The notes: generated from the sequence alone by a model not told the origin. A DNA stretch of 61,083 nucleotides from an uncultured Neomegalonema sp. (GCA_937922185.1 CAKZUT010000115.1:1-61083), one strand, 5' to 3'; positions 17,188-31,086 are shown, counted from the first letter of the stretch. A program made the numbers and translations.

Positions 17188-17291
17188 AGTCCGGGGCCGG
17201 GCGTATCACTGTCTGTTTACCGATAACGCGATATTAACCGGGGTCATCGACGGTCTTGACTGTCAAGATCAGCAAAGACCCGGAACGCGCC

Positions 17292-17831
17292 ATGACATCG
17301 GACCTTTATACTTATGACGGTTGCTCGCTTGCTGCGGAATTGAGTTATCTCGCGAATGATACGTATTCGTCCTGTGCTGTCATCTGCGACATGGAGCACA
17401 AATCGGCCCCGATCATTCTGGCGACCCGCGAATTCTATCGCGTGACCGGGTATCGTCGGAACGAGGTCATCGGACAGAACTGCCGCTTTCTTCAGGGCCG
17501 GAATACGGACCCGAGAGACGTGGAGGAAATCCGCGATGCGATTGCGGAGCGGCGGCAGGTCAGCCTCGAAATCCTGAATTACACGAAATCGGGTACGGAG
17601 ATGCTCAACTCGCTGTATATGGCCCCCTGTTTCAACGACAGCGGCAAGATGGTGCGATATCTGGCCTATCAGACCTTCTGCATGAAGGAAGCGCGGGAGG
17701 ACGATGCGCCCTATCGGGTCATCCTTCCGCGTTCGGGGTGCCGGGTGTCCCTGCAACGGTACAGCAAGGGCGAGTTCCATGCCGGATACCGGACTGCCCC
17801 GGCGATGCCGGAGCATGATCTGAGCCGGTAA
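17292..17831 (+). CDS. Short LOV-domain blue-light photoreceptor protein
   Basis: A 179-residue protein that is essentially one PAS/LOV domain. The flavin-adduct motif is canonical (GQNCRFLQGRNTD). Other chromophore positions look intact: the ILNYTKSGTEMLNSLYMAP strand with its Asn residues, and the Gln in YLAYQTF that senses flavin protonation. LOV proteins bind FMN and form a reversible Cys adduct in blue light. There is no kinase, GGDEF or DNA-binding output, so this is a short LOV protein with N- and C-terminal extensions. The track start is a TTG; the ATG at 17292 is preferred. A hairpin follows the gene, indicating a monocistronic unit. Confidence 0.9.
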   Translation: MTSDLYTYDGCSLAAELSYLANDTYSSCAVICDMEHKSAPIILATREFYRVTGYRRNEVIGQNCRFLQGRNTDPRDVEEIRDAIAERRQVSLEILNYTKSGTEMLNSLYMAPCFNDSGKMVRYLAYQTFCMKEAREDDAPYRVILPRSGCRVSLQRYSKGEFHAGYRTAPAMPEHDLSR

Positions 17832-19813: not shown

Positions 19814-21316
19814 ATGCGAGGGCACTTTCGATACGCGATTTCCATGATTCTCAGCCTCGTGGCCGCGTTCGTCGTGCTGTGGGGCGGAGTGGCCCGTGCG
19901 GAGCCGGAGGGGCGCGAGGCACTCAGGAACGGGGCCGACGTGTCATGGCGGATCGAGCCTTACAGCGATGGTTCCCGTCTCGGCCTGTCTGTTCCTGCCT
20001 TCGCGCAATGGAGGCCGGACGGCTTTGAGGAGCCGATGACCATCGAGATGCGAAGCGATGCGCTTGCGATGATCGATGCGTGGGAACTGGCCATTCATCG
20101 CCTCGGTGATACGGATTTCAGTCGCCCGCTGCGCCGGTTCCGGGGAACAGCGCGCACGCTGCACCGCCCGCTGCAATGGTCGGGGGAAACCGGCGACGGA
20201 CCGGCCCTGCGCCCCGGTGAAACCGTGGTCACGCGCCTGAGCGTTCGGGACGTGTCCGGCAATATCGACCGCAGCGCGCCGCAGAATACGCTGATCGCGC
20301 GCTACATCATGCGGGCCGAGCGTCGCAAGATCGCCGTCACGGATGCCGACCGGGCCAGCCTGCTGGATATCGGTACCGCCCCGCTGCCCCGCCGGATTCC
20401 CGTGCGGGGCCACCCTGTCGATCTGTTGCTGGAAAACTGGGACGAGAGCGACGCGCCCCATGCCTCCGGTGTGCCCCTGCGGCGCTCCGCCGATGCGTGG
20501 GTGCTCAACCAGTTCATGCCGACGGGGGACCACAGTATCGTCATCCAGTCCACCCGCCCCATCATCGGCGGTGTGCGCGCGGTGCCGGTGGGGGTCGTGC
20601 CGGTATCGGCCCCGCCTGACCTGCCGCTCGTCGCGGGGGTGAAGGGAACCGGCAAGCTGGAGCGCGAACCGACCGAACAGGAGGCCCCGTCCGGTTTCGA
20701 GATGGAAGGGGTCGTCTCCGGCAGGGGGGCGATCTCGCGTGTTCTGACGAACCGGGAAGGGGCGGAGGACCGGCTGGCCTTTGCGCTGATCGATGTGGAT
20801 CGGCCCGTGGCACTGGTCAAGGACGCGCGCAAGCGGCGGTCCCTGTTGATGTCCTACGATGCCGGGACGGTGGCCTGGCCGGGGTCGGGGCGGTCACAGG
20901 CATCCCTGCGCGATCCCGCAGACCCGGCGACCCGGCGCATCACGCTGACCTTCGCGATCCCCGCGCGGCCCGAACTGGTGCTGCCCCATACGGATGTATC
21001 CGATATCACGCTTTCCGTCCGGGGCGAGGGCAGGGCGCTCAGGGCGTTCCGCGATTATTTTCCCAATACCGCCGAAGGGCGGCTGCTTCTGTCGGGAACC
21101 GTGCTCACGCGGCTGGGGCAGATGCCGGATGCCGTTCTCGATGTGGGATATGATGTCCCGAAATTTGCCCCCTCGGTGCCGGTGGTCGGAACGATCCGCG
21201 AGGGCGGCGGGGGGGCCGACACCCGCTGGAACGATATCGAGGGCGGACCCTCTGTCGTCTCGTCCGGTGCCCGGAAGGATGGGCTGATAGAGCGATTTCT
21301 GAGCCTGTTCTTCTGA
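19814..21316 (+). CDS. Large exported protein of unknown function
   Basis: A 500-residue protein with an N-terminal signal (MILSLVAAFVVLWGGVARAEP). The mature part is beta-rich and without obvious catalytic motif: FSRPLRRFRGTARTLHRPLQWSG, GETVVTRLSVRDVSGNIDRS and ITLSVRGEGRALRAF have the alternating pattern of extracellular beta domains, and the chain ends in FLSLFF. I recognise no family. It precedes the XpaC-TelA genes on the same strand, but a promoter-like sequence lies between them, so it may be a neighbour and not a member. The start could also be the internal Met at residue 11. Confidence 0.75.
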   Translation: MRGHFRYAISMILSLVAAFVVLWGGVARAEPEGREALRNGADVSWRIEPYSDGSRLGLSVPAFAQWRPDGFEEPMTIEMRSDALAMIDAWELAIHRLGDTDFSRPLRRFRGTARTLHRPLQWSGETGDGPALRPGETVVTRLSVRDVSGNIDRSAPQNTLIARYIMRAERRKIAVTDADRASLLDIGTAPLPRRIPVRGHPVDLLLENWDESDAPHASGVPLRRSADAWVLNQFMPTGDHSIVIQSTRPIIGGVRAVPVGVVPVSAPPDLPLVAGVKGTGKLEREPTEQEAPSGFEMEGVVSGRGAISRVLTNREGAEDRLAFALIDVDRPVALVKDARKRRSLLMSYDAGTVAWPGSGRSQASLRDPADPATRRITLTFAIPARPELVLPHTDVSDITLSVRGEGRALRAFRDYFPNTAEGRLLLSGTVLTRLGQMPDAVLDVGYDVPKFAPSVPVVGTIREGGGGADTRWNDIEGGPSVVSSGARKDGLIERFLSLFF

Positions 21317-21442: not shown

Positions 21443-21535
21443 ATGAGTCCACGATTCCTGCGTACCCTCGCCTTCATCGTCCTGATCGGCATCGTATTCG
21501 CCGCATCCTGTGCTACATTCGCACAGGTGGGCTGA
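21443..21535 (+). CDS. Possible 30-residue single-span membrane peptide
   Basis: The ORF track has a longer frame; the plausible part is the 30-residue MSPRFLRTLAFIVLIGIVFA... which is a positively charged start followed by one hydrophobic helix and a short tail with one Cys (AASCATFAQVG). It lies 29 bp before the XpaC-like gene on the same strand. Small membrane peptides are common beside stress genes, but no homologue is recognised, and chance cannot be excluded. Confidence 0.4.
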   Translation: MSPRFLRTLAFIVLIGIVFAASCATFAQVG

Positions 21536-21564
21536 ACGATGTTCGAACGGGAGGACGCCGCGCG

Positions 21565-22506
21565 ATGACGGGCGATGCCGACGGCAAGAAGGAATACACG
21601 CCGAATTCCGCGAGTCGGTTCGGCGGGGCCGGTGCGGGCCGGGACGGAGCAGACCGATTCAAGAGCGCCCTGCGGCTGGATGATCGCGGAAAGCGGCGCT
21701 CGCGGTTTCGCAAGCGGACGCTTGGGCTGCTGCTTGCGGCCTCTCCCCTGCTGTTTGCCGCGATCAGGTCGCTGATGACCGGCAATGCCATCGGCATGGG
21801 CACGAATATCGGCCTTTTCGCGCTGTTCGCCTTCTCGGTCTTCCTGATTCGGGAAGGGGGCGAGGCGGAAGCGGCCTATGTGGACCGCACCTATGCCTCG
21901 CCGCCGCGCCTGCCCCGCAAGCTGCTCGGGTCGCTGGTGCTGGGCGGGGCGACCGTGCTGACGGGGCTGTTCGGCTGGGATATCGGCATGATCCAGTCGC
22001 TGGGCCTTGGGGTGCTGGCGGCGGGGGCGTCCCTGATGACCTTCGGTATCGACCCGATGCGGGCGAAGGGCGAGGTGTCGCTGTCCGGTGTCACGCCGCA
22101 GATGGTGGAGGAGGCGATTTCGGAGGCCGAGACGCGGATCGAGGGGATCGAGCGCGCCGCCGCCGATATCGTGGACCGCCCCCTGCGCGATCGCCTGTCG
22201 AAGATCACGGCGCGGGGGCGCGATATCCTCGCCCGGATCGAGGAAGACCCGTCCGACCTGCGCCGCGCCCGTAAGTTCCTGAAAGTCTATCTCGAAGGGG
22301 CGCTGGAGGCGACACGCAAATATGCGCGCAGCCAGCACGATCTCGCTGACAGCGAGATGTACCTGAAATTCCGCAGCCTGCTCGACGACATGCAGGCGAC
22401 CTTCGACCAGCAGCATCAGAAATTGCTGACGAATGACCGGATCGATCTGGATGTCGAAATCGATGTCCTCGCTGAACGCTTGAACAGAGAGGCCGTGCTG
22501 CAATAG
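21565..22506 (+). CDS. XpaC-like membrane protein (5-bromo-4-chloroindolyl phosphate hydrolysis family)
   Basis: A 313-residue protein. After a charged N-terminus there are four hydrophobic segments (LGLLLAASPLLFAAI, IGLFALFAFSVFLI, LLGSLVLGGATVLTGLF, SLGLGVLAAGASLMTF), then a long helical cytoplasmic domain (EEAISEAETRIEGIERAAADI to ADSEMYLKFRSLLDDMQATF). This matches XpaC-family proteins, which are commonly encoded next to TelA, as here: the TelA gene follows after 34 bp. The biochemical function is unknown despite the historical name; the pair is linked to tellurite and cell-envelope stress tolerance. Confidence 0.82.
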   Translation: MTGDADGKKEYTPNSASRFGGAGAGRDGADRFKSALRLDDRGKRRSRFRKRTLGLLLAASPLLFAAIRSLMTGNAIGMGTNIGLFALFAFSVFLIREGGEAEAAYVDRTYASPPRLPRKLLGSLVLGGATVLTGLFGWDIGMIQSLGLGVLAAGASLMTFGIDPMRAKGEVSLSGVTPQMVEEAISEAETRIEGIERAAADIVDRPLRDRLSKITARGRDILARIEEDPSDLRRARKFLKVYLEGALEATRKYARSQHDLADSEMYLKFRSLLDDMQATFDQQHQKLLTNDRIDLDVEIDVLAERLNREAVLQ

Positions 22507-22540
22507 CTTGGCACTGACCTAAAAAGAGACAGGGACCGTC

Positions 22541-23752
22541 ATGGCCGTTGAACAGACCGAGGCACTGCGGAACAGAACCGCGCTGGCAATCCGCGAAGCC
22601 GAGGATATCATCACGATCACGCCGCCGCCCCCGGCGCAGGAACTGATCACGCTTCAGAGCGCCGATCCGAATGCCGTGGCCGCGATCCGGGCGCGGATGG
22701 GCGAAATCGACCTGTCCAATACCCAGACAATCATCAAGTTCGGCTCGAAGGCGCAGGAAGACCTGACCGCGATTTCCGACGAGATGCTCGACGGGGTGCG
22801 GAACAAGGATGTCGGCCCCGCCGGGAATTCCCTGCGGAAAATGGTCACGACCATTCGCGGCTTCGATGTCAGCGAACTGGCCCCCGGCGAGAAGCCCGGT
22901 TTCCTCGCCCGCATGTGGAACTGGATCATGGGCAAATCGGCATCGACCGCCGATTTCGTCGCGCAATACGAGCAGGTGCGCGGCCAGATCGACAATATTC
23001 AGGACGAGTTGCTGACCCATGAGACCAAGCTGCTGAAGGACATCAAGTTCCTCGACAAGCTGTATGATTCGTCGTTGTCCTTCTATGACGAGCTGGCCCT
23101 CTACATCGCCGCCGGTGAGGCCAAGCTCAAGGAACTGGACGAGGTGGAGATTCCGGCCAAGGAACGCTATGTCGCCGAAGCCTCCGAGAATGACGGCGTG
23201 TTGCGGGCGCAGGAATTGCGCGATTTGCGCGCGGCCCGCGATGATCTGGAACGGCGCGTCTATGACCTGAAACTGACCCGGCAGGTGACGATGCAGTCGC
23301 TGCCCTCGATCCGGCTGGTGCAGGAAAACGACAAGAGCCTCGTCAACAAGATCAACTCGACCCTCGTGAACACCGTGCCGCTGTGGCAGACGCAGCTTGC
23401 TCAGGCGGTCACGATCCAGCGGTCGCGCGATGCGGCGGGGACGGTGAGGGATGCGACCGACCTGACCAACGAGTTGCTGACCAAGAATGCCGATAACCTC
23501 CAGATGGCGAACCGCGAGGTACGCGAGCAGATGGAGCGCGGTGTCTTCGACATCAATGCGGTCAAGCAGGCGAACCAGAGCCTGATCGACACGATCAATG
23601 AAAGCCTAGCCATTGCCGATGAGGGCAAGAAACGCCGCGCCGATGCGGAGATCGAACTGGCGCGCATGGAGGAGGAGCTGAAGAAGACCCTTTCCTCCGC
23701 GAAGGCGCGCCGGGACGGGACCGGCGACAATGTCGGCATTTCCGCCGGGTGA
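22541..23752 (+). CDS. TelA-family (toxic anion resistance) protein
   Basis: A 403-residue, almost wholly helical soluble protein typical of TelA/KlaA: RKMVTTIRGFDVSEL, ASTADFVAQYEQVRGQIDNI, then LTRQVTMQSLPSIRLVQENDKSLVNKI and LWQTQLAQAVTIQRSRDA, and a coiled-coil tail (DINAVKQANQSLIDTINESL). TelA proteins are associated with tellurite and other stress resistance, but the mechanism is not established. The gene lies between XpaC-like and DUF2927 genes, and the next gene's GTG overlaps its TGA (GTGA), so the cluster is an operon. Confidence 0.92.
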   Translation: MAVEQTEALRNRTALAIREAEDIITITPPPPAQELITLQSADPNAVAAIRARMGEIDLSNTQTIIKFGSKAQEDLTAISDEMLDGVRNKDVGPAGNSLRKMVTTIRGFDVSELAPGEKPGFLARMWNWIMGKSASTADFVAQYEQVRGQIDNIQDELLTHETKLLKDIKFLDKLYDSSLSFYDELALYIAAGEAKLKELDEVEIPAKERYVAEASENDGVLRAQELRDLRAARDDLERRVYDLKLTRQVTMQSLPSIRLVQENDKSLVNKINSTLVNTVPLWQTQLAQAVTIQRSRDAAGTVRDATDLTNELLTKNADNLQMANREVREQMERGVFDINAVKQANQSLIDTINESLAIADEGKKRRADAEIELARMEEELKKTLSSAKARRDGTGDNVGISAG

Positions 23753-24630
23753 GCGGATATCGCGCATATTCCGCCGCGTTTGCCGTGGCGCTTTCGCTGG
23801 CCGTGACGGCCTGCGGGGGGACGGGGAACCCGTACCCGACGCAGCAGCCCCGCGCGACATCGGTGGGGGTGCTGCCCCCTGACGTGCTGTCGCCGGTCTC
23901 GCGGGAGACTTTGCCCTTCGTCGCGGCGCGCCCCAGGGTCGAGCCTGACTATTCCAACAGCGAAGTCCTGCGTAATTTCCTCTCCATCGCGCTTCAGGCC
24001 GAAGCTGCCGACGAGGTGGGGCCGGATGGCGGCATCGCGATCTCGAAATGGCGCAGCCCGATCCGCTATCGTCTGACGGGCGCGCAGGTTCGGGACAGCG
24101 TTCAGGTCGCGGCCTTCGCGCAGCACCTGGCGTCCCTCACGGGCCTCGATATCCGCGAGGCGCGGGAAGTCGAGCGGTACAATATGGATATCCGCTTCGT
24201 GCCGCGCTCCTATCGCGGGGCCGAGATGCGCGAATTGCTGGGGACGCAGTGGCTGGGGCCACAGGTCGCGCGGCTGGCCTCCAACTGGCGGGATTTTGAG
24301 GCTGACCGCTGTTTCACGCTCACCACCCGCGATCCGCGCTCGGGCGTGACCGGGACCGCGCATATCTATATCAAGGATGAGTTACCCCTCGTGTGGCGCG
24401 AGACCTGTATCATCGAGGAGATGACTCAGAGTCTGGGCCTTCTGAACGATGATTCGCGGGCAAGGCCGTCGATCTTCAATGACGACGGTGCCTATCAGGC
24501 GCTGACGACGCATGACGAGTTGCTGCTGCGTATTCTCTACGATCCGCGCATCCGATCCGGGATGCGGCGTCGGAGCGTGGTGCCGCTGGCAGAACAGGTA
24601 CTCGCTGAACTGCGACCGGAGACGCGCTGA
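23749..24630 (+). CDS. DUF2927 lipoprotein, first of a tandem pair
   Basis: A 293-residue protein with a lipoprotein signal (AFAVALSLAVTAC, lipobox Cys near residue 23). The body matches DUF2927: NFLSIALQAE, ISKWRSPIRYRL, then CIIEEMTQSLGLLNDDSRA and RPSIFNDDGAYQALTTHDE, ending LRILYDPRIRSGM. The spacing of the EEMTQSLGL segment resembles a zinc-protease HExxHxxG motif in which the His residues are replaced. Function unknown. It overlaps TelA by GTGA and is followed by a paralogue through a TGATG overlap. Confidence 0.85.
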   Translation: MSGYRAYSAAFAVALSLAVTACGGTGNPYPTQQPRATSVGVLPPDVLSPVSRETLPFVAARPRVEPDYSNSEVLRNFLSIALQAEAADEVGPDGGIAISKWRSPIRYRLTGAQVRDSVQVAAFAQHLASLTGLDIREAREVERYNMDIRFVPRSYRGAEMRELLGTQWLGPQVARLASNWRDFEADRCFTLTTRDPRSGVTGTAHIYIKDELPLVWRETCIIEEMTQSLGLLNDDSRARPSIFNDDGAYQALTTHDELLLRILYDPRIRSGMRRRSVVPLAEQVLAELRPETR

Positions 24631-25469
24631 TGAAACATCTTTTGAGCGGAACGGGACTGGCTCTGGCCCTCACGGCCTGTGCGCCGCCATCGGCGGGGCC
24701 GGAACTGGCTGACCTGTATGGTCGGGCGGAAGTCCTCTACCGGACGGAAGCGAAGTTCCGCACGGAATACGATCCGGTCGATGCGCCCATCGACGCGCAG
24801 GCGCTGGAGCGCAATTTCCTGAAACTCGCCTTCAACAGCGAGGAACAGGTGATCGGCGACCGCACTATCGTGGCGGGCGATACGGTGCAGTTGCTGCGCT
24901 GGCCCTCGGATGTGACCTATGCCTCGATCGGGATCACATCGGCGGATGCCGCGCATCTCGATGCGCTGGCCCTGCGGATCGGCGGGGTGATCGGTCGCCG
25001 CGTGATCGCGACCGATGACGTGGCCGGTGCCCATGTGAAGATATGGATGCTCGACGGGCGCGACCGCTTCATCCTGCGCCAGACCGTCACCGAACGGTTC
25101 GGCGAATCGCTGGGGGCCTTCATCGCCGCCTGGACCGAACGCCCCGAATTGCCCTGCATCGGGATGATCTCGACCGACCCCGAAGATGACAGCCTCGCCG
25201 TGGGCCTGATCTTCGTGAAGGCGGAACTGAGCGGAAATTTCCGTCGTGCCTGCCTGACCGAGGAGTTCACGCAGGTCTTCGGCCTCATCAATGACGACCC
25301 CGAGGCGCGGCCCTCAATTTTCAATGACGACCAGGAGTTCATTGAATTGACCCGCCACGATGAATATCTGCTGAAGGTGCTTTACGATCCGAGGCTGAGG
25401 CCGGGCATGACCGAAGCGGAGGCCCGCCCGCTGGTGCGTCGGATCGTGCAGGATATTCCGGGCCTTTAA
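24630..25469 (+). CDS. DUF2927 lipoprotein, second of a tandem pair
   Basis: A 279-residue paralogue of the preceding protein. A short lipoprotein signal (LSGTGLALALTAC) precedes the same landmarks: RNFLKLAFNSEE, LLRWPSDVTYAS, CLTEEFTQVFGLINDDPEA, RPSIFNDDQEFIELTRHDE and LKVLYDPRLRPGM. The two proteins differ throughout, so the duplication is not recent, and both kept the family core. They are probably exported and lipid-anchored partners. Its ATG overlaps the upstream stop (TGATG). Confidence 0.85.
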   Translation: MKHLLSGTGLALALTACAPPSAGPELADLYGRAEVLYRTEAKFRTEYDPVDAPIDAQALERNFLKLAFNSEEQVIGDRTIVAGDTVQLLRWPSDVTYASIGITSADAAHLDALALRIGGVIGRRVIATDDVAGAHVKIWMLDGRDRFILRQTVTERFGESLGAFIAAWTERPELPCIGMISTDPEDDSLAVGLIFVKAELSGNFRRACLTEEFTQVFGLINDDPEARPSIFNDDQEFIELTRHDEYLLKVLYDPRLRPGMTEAEARPLVRRIVQDIPGL

Positions 25470-25502
25470 CAGGCCGCGAACGACGAGAACCAGGAGAGCC
25501 GG

Positions 25503-26618
25503 ATGAGCTTGTGGGACCGCCTTACGGGCGAATTTATCGACGTTATCGACTGGACGACCGATGACGGCGATACGATGGTCTGGCGCTTCGAGCGTTATGG
25601 AAACGAGATCAAGCATGGCGCGAAGCTGACCGTGCGCGAGGGGCAGGCGGCGGTCTTCGTGAACGAGGGGCAGGTCGCGGATGTCTTTCCGCCGGGCCTG
25701 TACATGCTGGAAACGAATAACCTGCCCATCCTCTCGACGATGCAGGCCTGGGACCACGGGTTCCAGTCGCCCTTCAAGGCGGAAATCTACTTCGTCAGCC
25801 TCAAGCAGTTCACCGATCTGAAATGGGGCACGAAGAACCCGGTCATGCTGCGCGATCCCGATTTCGGGCCGACGCGCCTGCGCGCCTTCGGCACCTATGC
25901 GATCCGGGTGGAAGATCCCACGGTCTTCCTGCGCGAGATCGTGGGCACGGACGGCGAGTTCACGACCGGCGAGATCGAGGGACAGCTTCGCAATATCATC
26001 GTCTCGCGGTTCTCGAACGCTATCGCCTCCTCGCATATCCCTGTGCTTGATCTGGCCGCCAATTACGACGATCTGGGCAAGTTCGCGGGCGTGAAGATCG
26101 GCGAGGAGATGACCGAATACGGGCTGACGCTCACCAAGCTGCTGGTCGAGAACGTCTCGCTGCCGCCGGAGGTCGAGAAGGCCATGGACCGGCGCACCCA
26201 GATGGGCGTCATCGGTGACCTGCACAAGTACACGCAGTTTCAGGCCGCCGAATCCATGCGTGCCGCCGCCGAGAATCCGGGGGAGGGTGGCGGGGCCGCC
26301 TCCGCCGGGATCGGGGCGGGTATCGGCATGGCCATGGGCGGCATGATGGGCAATGTGATGGGCGCGGGCGCCGCCGGGGGCAATGTGATCGCTCCGCCGC
26401 CGCTGCCTTCGGGCAAGCAATGGCATGTGGGCATCGGCGGGCAGACAAGCGGGCCGTTCGACGGGCAGGCCGTGGCCGGCATGGCCCGCGATGGCCGCCT
26501 GACGCGCGATACGCTGGTCTGGACGGCGGGTATGGAGGGCTGGGAACGCGCCGGTGCTGTCTCCGATCTGGCGCAGATGTTCGGAGCGACGCCCCCGCCG
26601 TTGCCGCCGGAAAGCTGA
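25503..26618 (+). CDS. SPFH-domain protein with C-terminal GYF_2 domain
   Basis: A 371-residue protein without an N-terminal membrane helix. Residues about 20-250 form an SPFH (virion-core/YdjI-like) domain: HGAKLTVREGQAAVFVNEGQ, LRAFGTYAIRVEDPTVFLRE, YGLTLTKLLVENVSLPPEVE. A Gly/Met/Ala-rich linker follows (GMAMGGMMGNVMGAG), then a GYF_2 domain (WHVGIGGQTSGPFDGQAV, LVWTAGMEGWERA) and a proline tail (PPPLPPES). GYF_2 domains bind partners, often Pro-rich. It follows the DUF2927 pair by 33 bp with AGGAGAG as ribosome site, and closes the cluster. Confidence 0.9.
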   Translation: MSLWDRLTGEFIDVIDWTTDDGDTMVWRFERYGNEIKHGAKLTVREGQAAVFVNEGQVADVFPPGLYMLETNNLPILSTMQAWDHGFQSPFKAEIYFVSLKQFTDLKWGTKNPVMLRDPDFGPTRLRAFGTYAIRVEDPTVFLREIVGTDGEFTTGEIEGQLRNIIVSRFSNAIASSHIPVLDLAANYDDLGKFAGVKIGEEMTEYGLTLTKLLVENVSLPPEVEKAMDRRTQMGVIGDLHKYTQFQAAESMRAAAENPGEGGGAASAGIGAGIGMAMGGMMGNVMGAGAAGGNVIAPPPLPSGKQWHVGIGGQTSGPFDGQAVAGMARDGRLTRDTLVWTAGMEGWERAGAVSDLAQMFGATPPPLPPES

Positions 26619-26929: not shown

Positions 26930-27661
26930 ATGACAGACGACCCCTCCCATCCGAAATGGTCGCGCGTCCTGCTGAAAATCTCGGGCGAGGCGCTGATGGG
27001 CGATCAGGGCTATGGGGTCCATCCGCCGACGGTCAATCGCATCGCGGAGGAGATCTACGCGGTTCAGCAGCAGGGCATCGAAATCTGCCTCGTCATCGGG
27101 GGCGGCAATATCTTTCGCGGGCTGTCCGCCGCCGCCTCGGGGATGGAACGGGCCTCCGCCGATTACGTGGGGATGCTGGCGACGATCATGAACGCGCTGT
27201 CGATGCAGAGCGCGCTGGAGGCGCTGGGGGCCGAAACCCGCGTGATGTCGGCCATTCCGATGCAGGCCGTGTGCGAACCCTATATCCGGCGCAAGGGGAT
27301 GCGGCATCTGGAGGAGGGACGCATCGCGATCTTCGCCGCCGGGATCGGCAACCCCTTCTTCACCACCGACACCGCCGCCGCCCTGCGGGCCATCGAGATG
27401 GGCTGCGATGCCCTGCTCAAGGGAACGCAGGTGGACGGGGTCTATGATTCCGACCCGAAGAAGAACCCGGATGCCAGACGGTTCGAGACGGTCAGCTACC
27501 GGCAGGTTCTGGCCGATAATCTGAACGTGATGGACGCGACCGCTATCGCCCTGGCGCGGGATAACAAGCTGCCCGTCGTCGTCTTTGACCTGCACCAGAA
27601 GAGCGGATTCGCCTCGGTCTTGTCGGGTGAGGGAAAATCGACCATTGTACAGGAGAGTTAA
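26930..27661 (+). CDS. pyrH: UMP kinase
   Basis: Phosphorylates UMP to UDP with ATP in pyrimidine nucleotide synthesis. The 243-residue bacterial type belongs to the amino-acid-kinase fold: [72 protein letters not shown]-like segment reading [17 protein letters not shown], and [15 protein letters not shown]. It opens the conserved pyrH-frr-uppS-cdsA-dxr-rseP-bamA block. Confidence 0.97.
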
Positions 27662-27679
27662 TACCATGGGTCTTTTCCG

Positions 27680-28246
27680 ATGAGTGACGATTTCGATATC
27701 GATCTCGATGATCTGGGTCGCCGTATGGAGGGGGCGCTGACCGCCCTGCGCGGCGAGTTCGGCAGTCTGCGGACGGGCCGGGCCACCGCCAGTATGCTCG
27801 ACCCCGTGATGGTGGATGCCTATGGCGCGAACACGCCGATCAATCAGGTGGGCACCGTCAATGTGCCCGAGCCGCGCATGGTGACCATCACGGTATGGGA
27901 CAAGGGCCTCATCAAGGCCGTGGAGAAGGCGCTGCGCGAGTCCGGCCTCGGGATCAATCCGCAGGTGGACGGTACGCTGTTCCGCCTGCCGATTCCCGAG
28001 CTGAACGAGGAACGCCGTGCCGAGCTGGCCAAGGTCGCCGCGAAATACGCCGAATCCGCGCGTGTCTCTGTCCGCAATGTGCGGCGGGACGGCATGGATC
28101 AGGTGAAAAAAGCGAAGAATGCCAACGATATCTCCGAGGATGACCAAAAACTTTACTCGGATGAAATACAGGAAATGACAGACAAGCATATCGCCGAGAT
28201 CGACGAGGCGCTGGCGGCGAAGGAAAAGGAAATCATGCAGGTGTGA
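27680..28246 (+). CDS. frr: Ribosome recycling factor
   Basis: Splits post-termination ribosomes together with EF-G. 188 residues, normal length. Signatures: [60 protein letters not shown], and the C-terminal helix [18 protein letters not shown]. It starts 18 bp after pyrH. Confidence 0.97.
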
Positions 28247-28318
28247 TCCTTCGCCTGCGGCCCGTGCCCCGCCGTCGCCTCCAACCGTCGGTCCGAGGGC
28301 CGGAACAGAAAGAGTCCC

Positions 28319-29095
28319 ATGCGTAGATTGCTGCCCGGCCGCCCCGCCCCTGTGACGGATGTTCCGCCAAAGACAGGCGATACCAGACCCTTGCCCGGTC
28401 ATGTGGCGATCATCATGGATGGTAATGGCCGCTGGGCCACGGGGCGCGGTCTGCCCCGGATCGCGGGGCATAAGCGCGGAATCAACTCCGTCCGCAAAAT
28501 CACCCGTCACGCCAAGGCGCGGGGGGTCAGATACCTGACGCTCTTTGCCTTCTCGACCGAGAACTGGCTGCGCCCGAAAGAGGAGGTCCACGGCCTTTTC
28601 GACCTGTTCCGCTACTACATGCGGCGGGAATGCCGCACGCTGGCGCGCGAGGGCGTGCGTATCCGTTTCATCGGCGACTCATCCGAGATGCCACAGGATA
28701 TCCAGTCGATGATGGTCGAGGCGGAGAACATGACCGCCGCAGGCGATACGATGACCCTGATCGTCGCGCTCAATTACGGCTCGCGGGCCGAGATTGTGAC
28801 GGCGACCCAGCGGCTGGCCGCGCGGGTGGCGGCGGGAGAGCTGTCCGCCGGAGACATCACCGACACGATGATCTCCGCCGAACTGAACACGTCGGACTTC
28901 CCCGACCCCGATCTCATCATCCGCACGAGCGGTGAACAGCGGCTGTCGAACTTCCTGCTCTGGCAGGCGGCCTATTCTGAATTCCTGTTCGTGGATCGCC
29001 ACTGGCCGGATTTCGACGAGCCGTCCTTTGACGAATGCCTTGACCTCTATTGCCAGCGTGACCGCCGCTTCGGCGGGCTACGCAAGTCCGGGTAG
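28319..29095 (+). CDS. uppS: Undecaprenyl (polyprenyl) diphosphate synthase
   Basis: Cis-prenyltransferase that makes the C55 lipid carrier for peptidoglycan and other envelope polymers. 258 residues. Motifs: HVAIIMDGNGRWATGRGLPR (catalytic Asp in MDGNGRWA), GHKRGINSVR, LTLFAFSTENW, and the C-terminal DLIIRTSGEQRLSNFLLWQA with the RxSGE(x)RxSNF signature. It is 72 bp after frr and 3 bp before cdsA. Confidence 0.97.
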   Translation: MRRLLPGRPAPVTDVPPKTGDTRPLPGHVAIIMDGNGRWATGRGLPRIAGHKRGINSVRKITRHAKARGVRYLTLFAFSTENWLRPKEEVHGLFDLFRYYMRRECRTLAREGVRIRFIGDSSEMPQDIQSMMVEAENMTAAGDTMTLIVALNYGSRAEIVTATQRLAARVAAGELSAGDITDTMISAELNTSDFPDPDLIIRTSGEQRLSNFLLWQAAYSEFLFVDRHWPDFDEPSFDECLDLYCQRDRRFGGLRKSG

Positions 29096-29098
29096 CGG

Positions 29099-29908
29099 AT
29101 GCGGTTCGGGTCCGATCTGCGCCAGCGGGTGATTTCGGGTGCCTTGCTGGCAGGGGCAGCGGTGATCGCGGTCACGCTCGGCGGGTGGGTATCGGCGCTG
29201 TTCGTCGCGCTGGGCACGGGGATCATGGCGTGGGAACTGACCCGGATGACGCGCGGAGTGCTGGGTTTCCGCCTGCCCGGTGCGATTCTCGCCTTTCTGA
29301 CCGGAGCCGCCGCGCCCGTCGTGGTCGAGGTCGCCGGGATCGTGCCGGCACTGGCGACGGCAAGCGTACTGTCCGTCGTGACGGGCTTCGGGCTGGCGCG
29401 AAAGACGCCCCGGCCCGAACTGCTGGCCCTCGGTATCTTTCTGCTCGCCTGTGCGGGCGCATTCTTCGTCTGGCTGCGCGATCTCGACAGTATCGGCCTG
29501 ACGATCGTTATCTGGCTCGTGCTGGTGGTCGTGGCGGCGGATATGGGCGGGTATTTCGTGGGACGTGCCGTCGGCGGGCCGAAGCTGGCCCCGATTCTCA
29601 GCCCGAACAAGACCTGGGCGGGGGCGCTGGGGGGGATCACCTTCGCCGTTATCGCCTCGGAGATGGTCGCGCTGGTCGTCCAGGGTAAACCGGTCGTCTT
29701 CGCCCTGCTCGCGGCCCTGACCGCGATTGTCTCGCAGGCGGGCGACCTGATCGAATCCGCCACGAAACGCCGGTTCGGCGTGAAGGATTCGAGCGCGCTG
29801 ATCCCCGGTCACGGCGGCGTTCTCGACCGTTTCGACGCCCTGGCGGCAGCATCTCTGTTCGTCGGGCTGGTTCTGTTTCTCTTCCCGTCCCTGATACGCC
29901 AATGGTAG
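29099..29908 (+). CDS. cdsA: Phosphatidate cytidylyltransferase
   Basis: An integral membrane enzyme making CDP-diacylglycerol from CTP and phosphatidate. 269 residues with about seven hydrophobic segments. The C-terminal signature is clear: NKTWAGALGGITFAV, SQAGDLIESATKRRFGVKDS and LIPGHGGVLDRFDAL. Its end overlaps the start of dxr by 7 bases. Confidence 0.96.
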   Translation: MRFGSDLRQRVISGALLAGAAVIAVTLGGWVSALFVALGTGIMAWELTRMTRGVLGFRLPGAILAFLTGAAAPVVVEVAGIVPALATASVLSVVTGFGLARKTPRPELLALGIFLLACAGAFFVWLRDLDSIGLTIVIWLVLVVVAADMGGYFVGRAVGGPKLAPILSPNKTWAGALGGITFAVIASEMVALVVQGKPVVFALLAALTAIVSQAGDLIESATKRRFGVKDSSALIPGHGGVLDRFDALAAASLFVGLVLFLFPSLIRQW

Positions 29909-31086
29909 CGCGTCGCTCTGTTTCCGTCTTCGGCTCGACCGGATCGGTGGGGCGCAGCACACTCGACGTGATCGCGGCCCATGGCGGGGCCGGGACGTGG
30001 GATGTGGAGGTTCTGACCGGCGGATCGAATGCCGCGTTGCTGGCCGAACAGGCCAGGGCAACCCGCGCGAAGCTGGCCGTTATCCAGAACGAGGATGCCC
30101 TGCCGACCCTGCGCGAGGCGCTGGCCGGAACGGGGATCGAGGCGGCGGCGGGGGATGCGGCCCTGCTGGAGGCGGCGGGTCGGCGTGTGGATGTCTGTCT
30201 GTCGGCCATCGCGGGCGCGGCGGGGCTGGCCCCGACAATGGCCGCCATCCGCGCCGGATCGACCCTCGCACTGGCCAATAAGGAATCCATGGTCTGCGCC
30301 GGGGGCCTCGTCCGGCAGGAGGTCGATAAGGCCGGTACGCGCATCCTGCCCGTCGATTCCGAACACAGTGCGATCTTTCAGGTGCTGGAGGAACGCCATT
30401 CGGAGGCCATCGACCGCATCGTGCTGACGGCTTCGGGCGGCCCGTTCCGCGCGTATTCGCTGGAGCAGATGCGCGCCGTGACCCCCGAGGACGCCATCGC
30501 GCATCCGCAATGGTCGATGGGGGTGGCGATCTCGCTTGATTCCGCCACGATGTTCAACAAGGGGCTGGAACTGATCGAGGCCGATCAACTGTTTCCCGTC
30601 GCGGCCCACAGGATCGAGATTCTGGTCCATCCACAGTCGATCATTCATTCCATGGTCGGCTATCGCGACGGGTCGATCCTCGCACAACTGGGCACGCCCG
30701 ATATGCGGACCCCCATCGCCTATGCGCTGGGCTGGCCCCGGCGCGTCGATGCGCCGGTCGAGCGACTCGATTTCGTGGCGCTTTCCCGCCTCGATTTCGA
30801 GGCACCCGACGATATCCGCTTTCCGGCCCTGCGGATTGCGCGCGAGGCGATGGAGGCCGGTGCCCTCGCCCCCTGCGCGATGAATGCGGCCAAGGAGGTC
30901 GCCGCTGAGGCTTTTCTGACCCGAAGGATACCCTTTCTTGAAATCGCCGTGGTTGTAGAGTGTGTCATGGAAAGCTTCGACCATGGCCCCGCCGCCACAT
31001 CGCTGGATGACGTGATCGCCGCCGACCGGGACGCCCGTGCGCTTGCCCGCGAGGTCATGGAACGACGCGCCCGCCAGTTTGCCTGA
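29902..31086 (+). CDS. dxr: 1-deoxy-D-xylulose-5-phosphate reductoisomerase
   Basis: Second enzyme of the MEP isoprenoid pathway; converts DXP to MEP with NADPH. 394 residues. SVFGSTGSVGRSTLDVI is the NADPH-binding start, ALANKESMVCAGGLV and PVDSEHSAIFQVLEERH are active-site segments, followed by LTASGGPFR, HPQWSMGVAISLDSATMFNK and a complete C-terminal helical domain. It overlaps cdsA, and with uppS and cdsA links isoprenoid and lipid supply. Confidence 0.97.
   Translation: MVARRSVSVFGSTGSVGRSTLDVIAAHGGAGTWDVEVLTGGSNAALLAEQARATRAKLAVIQNEDALPTLREALAGTGIEAAAGDAALLEAAGRRVDVCLSAIAGAAGLAPTMAAIRAGSTLALANKESMVCAGGLVRQEVDKAGTRILPVDSEHSAIFQVLEERHSEAIDRIVLTASGGPFRAYSLEQMRAVTPEDAIAHPQWSMGVAISLDSATMFNKGLELIEADQLFPVAAHRIEILVHPQSIIHSMVGYRDGSILAQLGTPDMRTPIAYALGWPRRVDAPVERLDFVALSRLDFEAPDDIRFPALRIAREAMEAGALAPCAMNAAKEVAAEAFLTRRIPFLEIAVVVECVMESFDHGPAATSLDDVIAADRDARALAREVMERRARQFA

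Follow-up and report, generated by a model that had tools for sequence, protein, structure and literature searches.

In Bacillus subtilis, the SPFH protein YdjI is needed, together with YdjG and YdjH, for recruitment of PspA to the membrane, and its loss lowers membrane fluidity (PMC8581546). The pspA-ydjGHI genes are under sigmaW control (PMC8581546), and YdjG combines two zinc ribbons with an NTF2-like domain and a transmembrane (TM) segment (PMC11237479). B. subtilis xpaC-yaaN lies within the core sigmaW regulon (PMC3498285). In Listeria, a TelA mutant shows a 4-fold increase in sensitivity to nisin and a 2-fold increase in sensitivity to tellurite, according to work cited in PMC12791056. 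Both TelA and XpaC are widespread, and neither has a known biochemical activity. Among the open-access papers searched, none joins TelA, XpaC, and SPFH, and none mentions DUF2927, a family of unknown function. Here, an operon that brings these four families together is described in an uncultured Neomegalonema sp.

The window is the whole stretch of DNA analysed, 61,083 nucleotides long (GCA_937922185.1 CAKZUT010000115.1:1-61083). It contains a five-gene block at 21565-26618, encoding XpaC, TelA, DUF2927, DUF2927, and SPFH plus GYF_2, with intergenic gaps of at most 34 nt (Table 1). Pfam assignments and these spacings bear out the gene list of the original prediction. Including a small upstream peptide, six plus-strand ORFs run head to tail, separated by 29, 34, -4, -1, and 33 nt. 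The 34-nt gap lies between XpaC and TelA, with Pfam placing the XpaC-family gene directly upstream of the TelA-family gene on the same strand. TelA overlaps the first DUF2927 gene by 4 nt (GTGA), the two DUF2927 genes overlap by 1 nt (TGATG), and the second is followed by SPFH after 33 nt. The hydropathy profile of XpaC reveals four hydrophobic N-terminal segments, which precede a C-terminal helical domain. No match to the operon was found in PADLOC-DB up to an E-value of 1, and NCBIfam holds no name for the gene set.

The operon had been predicted to start at 21443. This position instead belongs to a 30-codon hydrophobic ORF, and XpaC begins at 21565. The small ORF is probably a genuine, conserved small membrane peptide because similar ORFs precede XpaC in five relatives (L114, L115, L117, L118, and L121), where they span 38-41 codons and encode peptides resembling RTLAF..L.G..FAASCATF. 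Just upstream of the operon, 19814-21316 encodes a 500-aa protein that carries a hydrophobic segment near its N-terminus and to which Pfam assigns no family above the cut-off. Further away, the ORF at 17256-17831 contains GQNCRFLQG, which we take to resemble a LOV-type photoreceptor motif. On the 3' side of the operon, 26930-31086 holds ORFs read by eye as pyrH, frr, uppS, cdsA, and dxr. The operon therefore occupies a different chromosomal site from that in most relatives.

Table 1. Features of the operon, in coordinates of the window.
Feature	Position	Strand	Basis
Small ORF, 30 aa, one hydrophobic helix, MSPRFLRTLAFIVLIGIVFAASCATFAQVG	21443..21535	+	Sequence, hydropathy, peptides in relatives
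XpaC-like PF10112 (XpaC/Halogen_Hydrol), 313 aa	21565..22506	+	Pfam 2.3e-29; hydropathy
TelA PF05816, 403 aa, soluble	22541..23752	+	Pfam 2.8e-105; AF2 model
DUF2927 (PF11150) lipoprotein copy 1, GTG start	23749..24630	+	Pfam 3.1e-42; AF2; Foldseek, VIA-align 2
Copy 1 degenerate metzincin motif (predicted) EEMTQSLGLLND	24415..24450	+	Column census, 55 homologues
DUF2927 (PF11150) lipoprotein copy 2, ATG start	24630..25469	+	Pfam 2e-36
Copy 2 degenerate metzincin motif (predicted) EEFTQVFGLIND	25260..25295	+	Sequence, column census
SPFH protein, Band_7_1 type (PF13421) + C-terminal GYF_2, 371 aa	25503..26618	+	Pfam 4.8e-101
PPPLP oligoproline segment before GYF_2	26394..26408	+	Sequence
GYF_2 (PF14237), residues 307-356	26421..26570	+	Pfam 5.3e-17
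PPPLPP C-terminal oligoproline tail after GYF_2	26592..26609	+	PPP in homologues' last 25 residues

The closest TelA matches come from uncultured Neomegalonema MAGs (95-96% identity), and the gene set is nearly universal in the order. Profile searches for each family in 101 Rhodobacterales genomes detected TelA in 100, DUF2927 in 100, PF10112 in 99, and Band_7_1 in 99, of which 98 score above the cut-off. Judged by the coordinates of the matches listed, DUF2927 lies within 800 nt after TelA in at least 95 of the 100 TelA genomes. It is directly 3' of TelA in 96 when G059 is counted, whose locus (L070) shows DUF2927 in place. The gap between the two genes ranges from -4 to 27 nt in 36 sampled cases, and among the matches listed SPFH follows within 6 kb of TelA in 97 of the 100 genomes. 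The original prediction had proposed checking neighbourhood conservation in Rhodobacterales, and adjacency proves near-constant. Because DUF2927 adjoins TelA in 96/100 genomes, a random association, with DUF2927 genes mostly elsewhere, fails as an explanation, and chance is excluded. The near-universal distribution also argues against an accessory role in anti-phage defence.

The neighbourhoods of approximately 60 TelA loci define the layout of the full module. The usual order is [RsuA], [TerC], (small TM protein), XpaC, TelA, DUF2927, (variable slot), SPFH-GYF_2, (small membrane protein), and ZnR-TM. The ZnR-TM protein has approximately 370 aa, two four-Cys zinc ribbons, a C-terminal hydrophobic segment, and many invariant residues, and its gene is found downstream of SPFH in most relatives. 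The predicted membership list was thus correct for its five genes and lacked this usual sixth member. No zinc-ribbon gene lies beside SPFH in the window's operon or in its closest relatives; the window's genome carries ZnR-TM unlinked, at G000:C125, with 58% identity. The PspA family is represented in this genome at G000:C161 only, plus a weak second match at C228, and not in the operon. A 200-220-aa protein with a signal-like N-terminus and weak similarity to DUF4241 is a frequent occupant of the variable slot between DUF2927 and SPFH (L034, L036, L037, L045, L046, L100, and L101), with three tandem copies in L037.

In other families of the class, the core of XpaC, TelA, SPFH, and ZnR/TM occurs without DUF2927 (L056, L057, and L059). 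Two loci inside the window's family, L041 and L071, have the same core and also lack DUF2927. Among 241 genomes of the class, only a few outside the window's family contain both TelA and DUF2927 (G177, G253, and G277), and there they are on separate contigs. Because the TelA-SPFH cores outside the window's family lack DUF2927, its position beside TelA is, judging from gene neighbourhoods, an addition of the Rhodobacterales lineage. Other arrangements of these families also exist. In L055, L058, and L065, a different TelA set comprises TelA, a solute-binding+VWA fusion, a short XpaC, and a second solute-binding-like protein. One genome outside the family carries several DUF2927 matches, seven as listed, within approximately 20 kb of a single contig, G232:C1 (L085, 42000-60000 and beyond).

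Both DUF2927 copies in the window begin with a signal peptide and a lipobox (VTAC and LTAC). Of 38 operon-encoded DUF2927 proteins, 35 have a lipobox-like signal that fits a strict pattern, and the other three have a near-fitting Cys. These signals place the operon DUF2927 proteins outside the cytoplasm, as putative lipid-anchored proteins. The pair had been predicted to supply a periplasmic arm. The lipoboxes uphold a lipid-anchored extracytoplasmic arm; the pairing is clade-specific, one copy being usual elsewhere. Of the 11 Neomegalonema-like loci covering this region, 10 (L112-L120 and L122) have two DUF2927 genes, and L121 has one. The tree traces the two copies along separate lineages, which points to a single ancient duplication within the Neomegalonema-like clade, after which both copies were kept, although copy 2 forms a single clade with only moderate support. 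Both tandem copies retain the motif EExxQxxGxxND.

At meaningful E-values, no protein of solved structure matches the sequence of TelA, XpaC, or DUF2927. The fold of DUF2927 was assigned from an AF2 model of copy 1; this single model, built from a 55-sequence alignment, has a mean pLDDT of 82, mostly above 90 in the folded domain. Foldseek searches of the PDB are led by matrix metalloproteinases (MMPs), karilysin, snapalysin, and astacin, mostly with probabilities of 0.9-1.0 and with E-values no better than 2.3e-3. VIA-align 2 aligns 143 of 165 residues with MMP-8 (1bzs) at Z 12.5 and rmsd 2.4 Å; models that lack a clear match typically reach a best Z of 7-8. The best 50 listed matches are metzincins (MMPs, karilysin, and serralysin-type PrtC). 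DUF2927 is thus predicted to adopt a metzincin fold across residues ~77-266. The proposed homology rests on the predicted fold because profile-profile comparison was not significant: hhalign against 15 alphaproteobacterial M10 metzincins gave a probability of 0.6% and an E-value of 0.099, with the motif unaligned.

The loss of the metzincin zinc motif is read directly from the sequences. Where metzincins have HExxHxxGxxH, approximately 53 of 55 DUF2927 homologues, including both window copies, have EExxQxxGxxND. The column census gives E 53, E 53, Q 53, G 55, N 50, and D 53, along with two invariant Cys, and the second His column is occupied by Q, R, or S and never by H. We infer the register of the two motifs from the order of the helices together with the GxGL that both have, and with it the residue-by-residue match to the zinc ligands. 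The columns after the motif read PS[IL]F, with no Met where this register would place the Met-turn. Given a predicted metzincin fold whose zinc motif reads EExxQxxGxxND, DUF2927 proteins look like conserved pseudoproteases. The conservation of the replacement residues suggests that the binding cleft still functions and has not simply decayed. Because zinc-binding residues appear to be replaced by other strictly conserved ones, the DUF2927 lipoproteins may bind, and not cleave, a target outside the membrane. Both the fold and the broken active site proposed for this family are new here.

DUF2927 also has a second genomic setting. Most genomes of the family encode a further, often longer DUF2927 protein (approximately 455 aa) elsewhere. 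In 17 of 22 such loci (L088, L089, and L147-L166), the gene is flanked on one side by that of a MoxR-type AAA ATPase and on the other by that of a VWA_CoxE protein. The same kind of exported partner is thus found with two different intracellular modules. This arrangement links the family to a second, MoxR-type system. DUF2927 proteins could tentatively be viewed as secreted pseudometzincins that provide a non-catalytic periplasmic binding module, a receptor or substrate clamp, for both TelA-SPFH and MoxR-CoxE, a generalisation that we hold with less than even confidence.

The GYF_2 domain of the SPFH protein has a weak sequence match to the GYF domain of a Myxococcus gliding protein (7z3c). 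It was predicted that this domain could bind Pro-rich partners. In 42 of 43 SPFH-GYF_2 homologues, PPP occurs within the C-terminal 25 residues, and nearly all homologues, read by eye, also have oligoproline before the domain. Because oligoproline brackets GYF_2, the simplest reading is that its likeliest ligand is the SPFH protein's own PPPLP/PPPPP tail, bound in cis or between subunits. PPP is rare in XpaC (2/49) and the ZnR protein (5/36). TelA was considered as a ligand since the window's copy has PPPP near its N-terminus, yet only 3 of 57 TelA homologues contain PPP. The AF2 model of TelA (mean pLDDT 80, pTM 0.61) consists of helices of 80, 116, and 55 residues and a small N-terminal helical part. 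Its best structural matches, with Z up to 12.7, are coiled coils, a designed helical mimic, and ClyA-type helical proteins. No fold is claimed for TelA because these Z-scores are within the range for unrelated helical bundles and the pTM is low. No ESCRT-III/PspA-type chain is among the TelA structure matches listed, and the TelA and XpaC profiles show no similarity to each other.

Taken together, the operon may be the Rhodobacterales form of an XpaC-TelA/SPFH envelope-maintenance module in which DUF2927 is a non-cutting outside half, a reading to which we assign a probability of roughly 45%. The originally predicted membrane-stress role is kept here as an analogy, drawn from Bacillus and Listeria, by which the operon probably functions in envelope stress. 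Its gene content and order, their conservation, the lipoboxes, and the motif loss are observed directly, and the DUF2927 fold is predicted; we infer that its products attach to the membrane, cross-link, bind ligands, and act under stress in the following way. XpaC would be the membrane anchor and TelA a long cytosolic helical scaffold. The SPFH protein would oligomerise at the inner face, where the zinc-ribbon+TM partner (unlinked here) probably fixes it to the membrane, and its oligomers would be cross-linked when GYF_2 grips a neighbour's oligoproline tail. On the outside, lipid-anchored DUF2927 proteins of metzincin fold, their zinc ligands swapped for conserved EE/Q/N(D), may use the old substrate cleft to retain, uncleaved, either periplasmic polypeptides or a damage signal. 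The inner-membrane scaffold would then respond to envelope damage that DUF2927 reports, or to outside material that it holds.

The strongest competitor concerns DUF2927 itself, which could still be an enzyme. Its conserved Glu-Glu, Gln, and Asn-Asp residues, lying in what was the zinc cleft, might bind another metal or catalyse reactions other than peptide hydrolysis, with peptidoglycan or lipoproteins as possible substrates, making the operon an envelope-processing pathway. Even distant homologues show almost no variation at the substituted positions, beyond what mere loss of function predicts, and D256 is invariant in the alignment, as are the two Cys. A conserved non-catalytic binding cleft, however, accounts equally well for this conservation, and HExxH is absent in either register from all 55 DUF2927 sequences. 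We consider continued catalysis unlikely, at about one chance in four.

Two further explanations are less probable still. The operon could be mainly a device for resistance to toxic oxyanions such as tellurite, with the other genes in support, as the TelA family name implies and as a TerC-family gene (PF03741) adjoining the operon in several relatives would fit. However, it is present in almost all members of the order that were sampled, a distribution more like that of housekeeping genes, and the Listeria mutant, as cited in PMC12791056, is sensitised more to nisin than to tellurite. An equally doubtful proposal is that XpaC-TelA, DUF2927, and SPFH share only a promoter and have separate functions within a conserved chromosomal neighbourhood. 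The wider surroundings are indeed conserved (RsuA upstream; a PfkB-type kinase and DTD downstream), and the slot between DUF2927 and SPFH admits unrelated genes, such as a lactate permease. Against this, the window has the block intact at another site, upstream of pyrH; XpaC-TelA-SPFH-ZnR is kept together in other families of the class; and stop and start codons overlap.

If the operon is indeed an envelope-maintenance module with DUF2927 as its outside half, its order-wide pairing of an SPFH scaffold with a putative lipid-anchored pseudoprotease offers a concrete two-sided membrane complex to test. Compared with metzincins (MMPs, karilysin, snapalysin, and serralysins), DUF2927 keeps the predicted fold, the active-helix Glu, and GxGL, but the three zinc-ligand His are replaced by E, Q, and N, and a lipid anchor is present. 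The MoxR AAA ATPase-CoxE/VWA module has its own DUF2927 protein in most of the Rhodobacterales loci examined but lacks TelA, XpaC, and SPFH. B. subtilis xpaC-yaaN and Listeria lmo1966-lmo1967 have XpaC directly upstream of TelA, as in Rhodobacterales; however, they consist of two genes only, whereas the Rhodobacterales set is extended by DUF2927 and SPFH/GYF_2. A PF13421 search also has a match in B. subtilis, presumably YdjI. With pspA-ydjGHI, the Rhodobacterales operon has in common a Band_7_1 SPFH protein, a TM partner with two N-terminal zinc ribbons (compared by architecture), and a putative membrane-stress setting. The partner with YdjG architecture is in the operon in most relatives but absent from that of the window. 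Unlike pspA-ydjGHI, the Rhodobacterales operon has no PspA and includes XpaC, TelA, and lipid-anchored DUF2927, and its SPFH protein ends in GYF_2 and oligoproline rather than in the zinc-ribbon end of the B. subtilis protein. Thus, parts that belong to separate sigmaW operons in Bacillus are joined in one Rhodobacterales operon, to which a putative exported clamp has been added.
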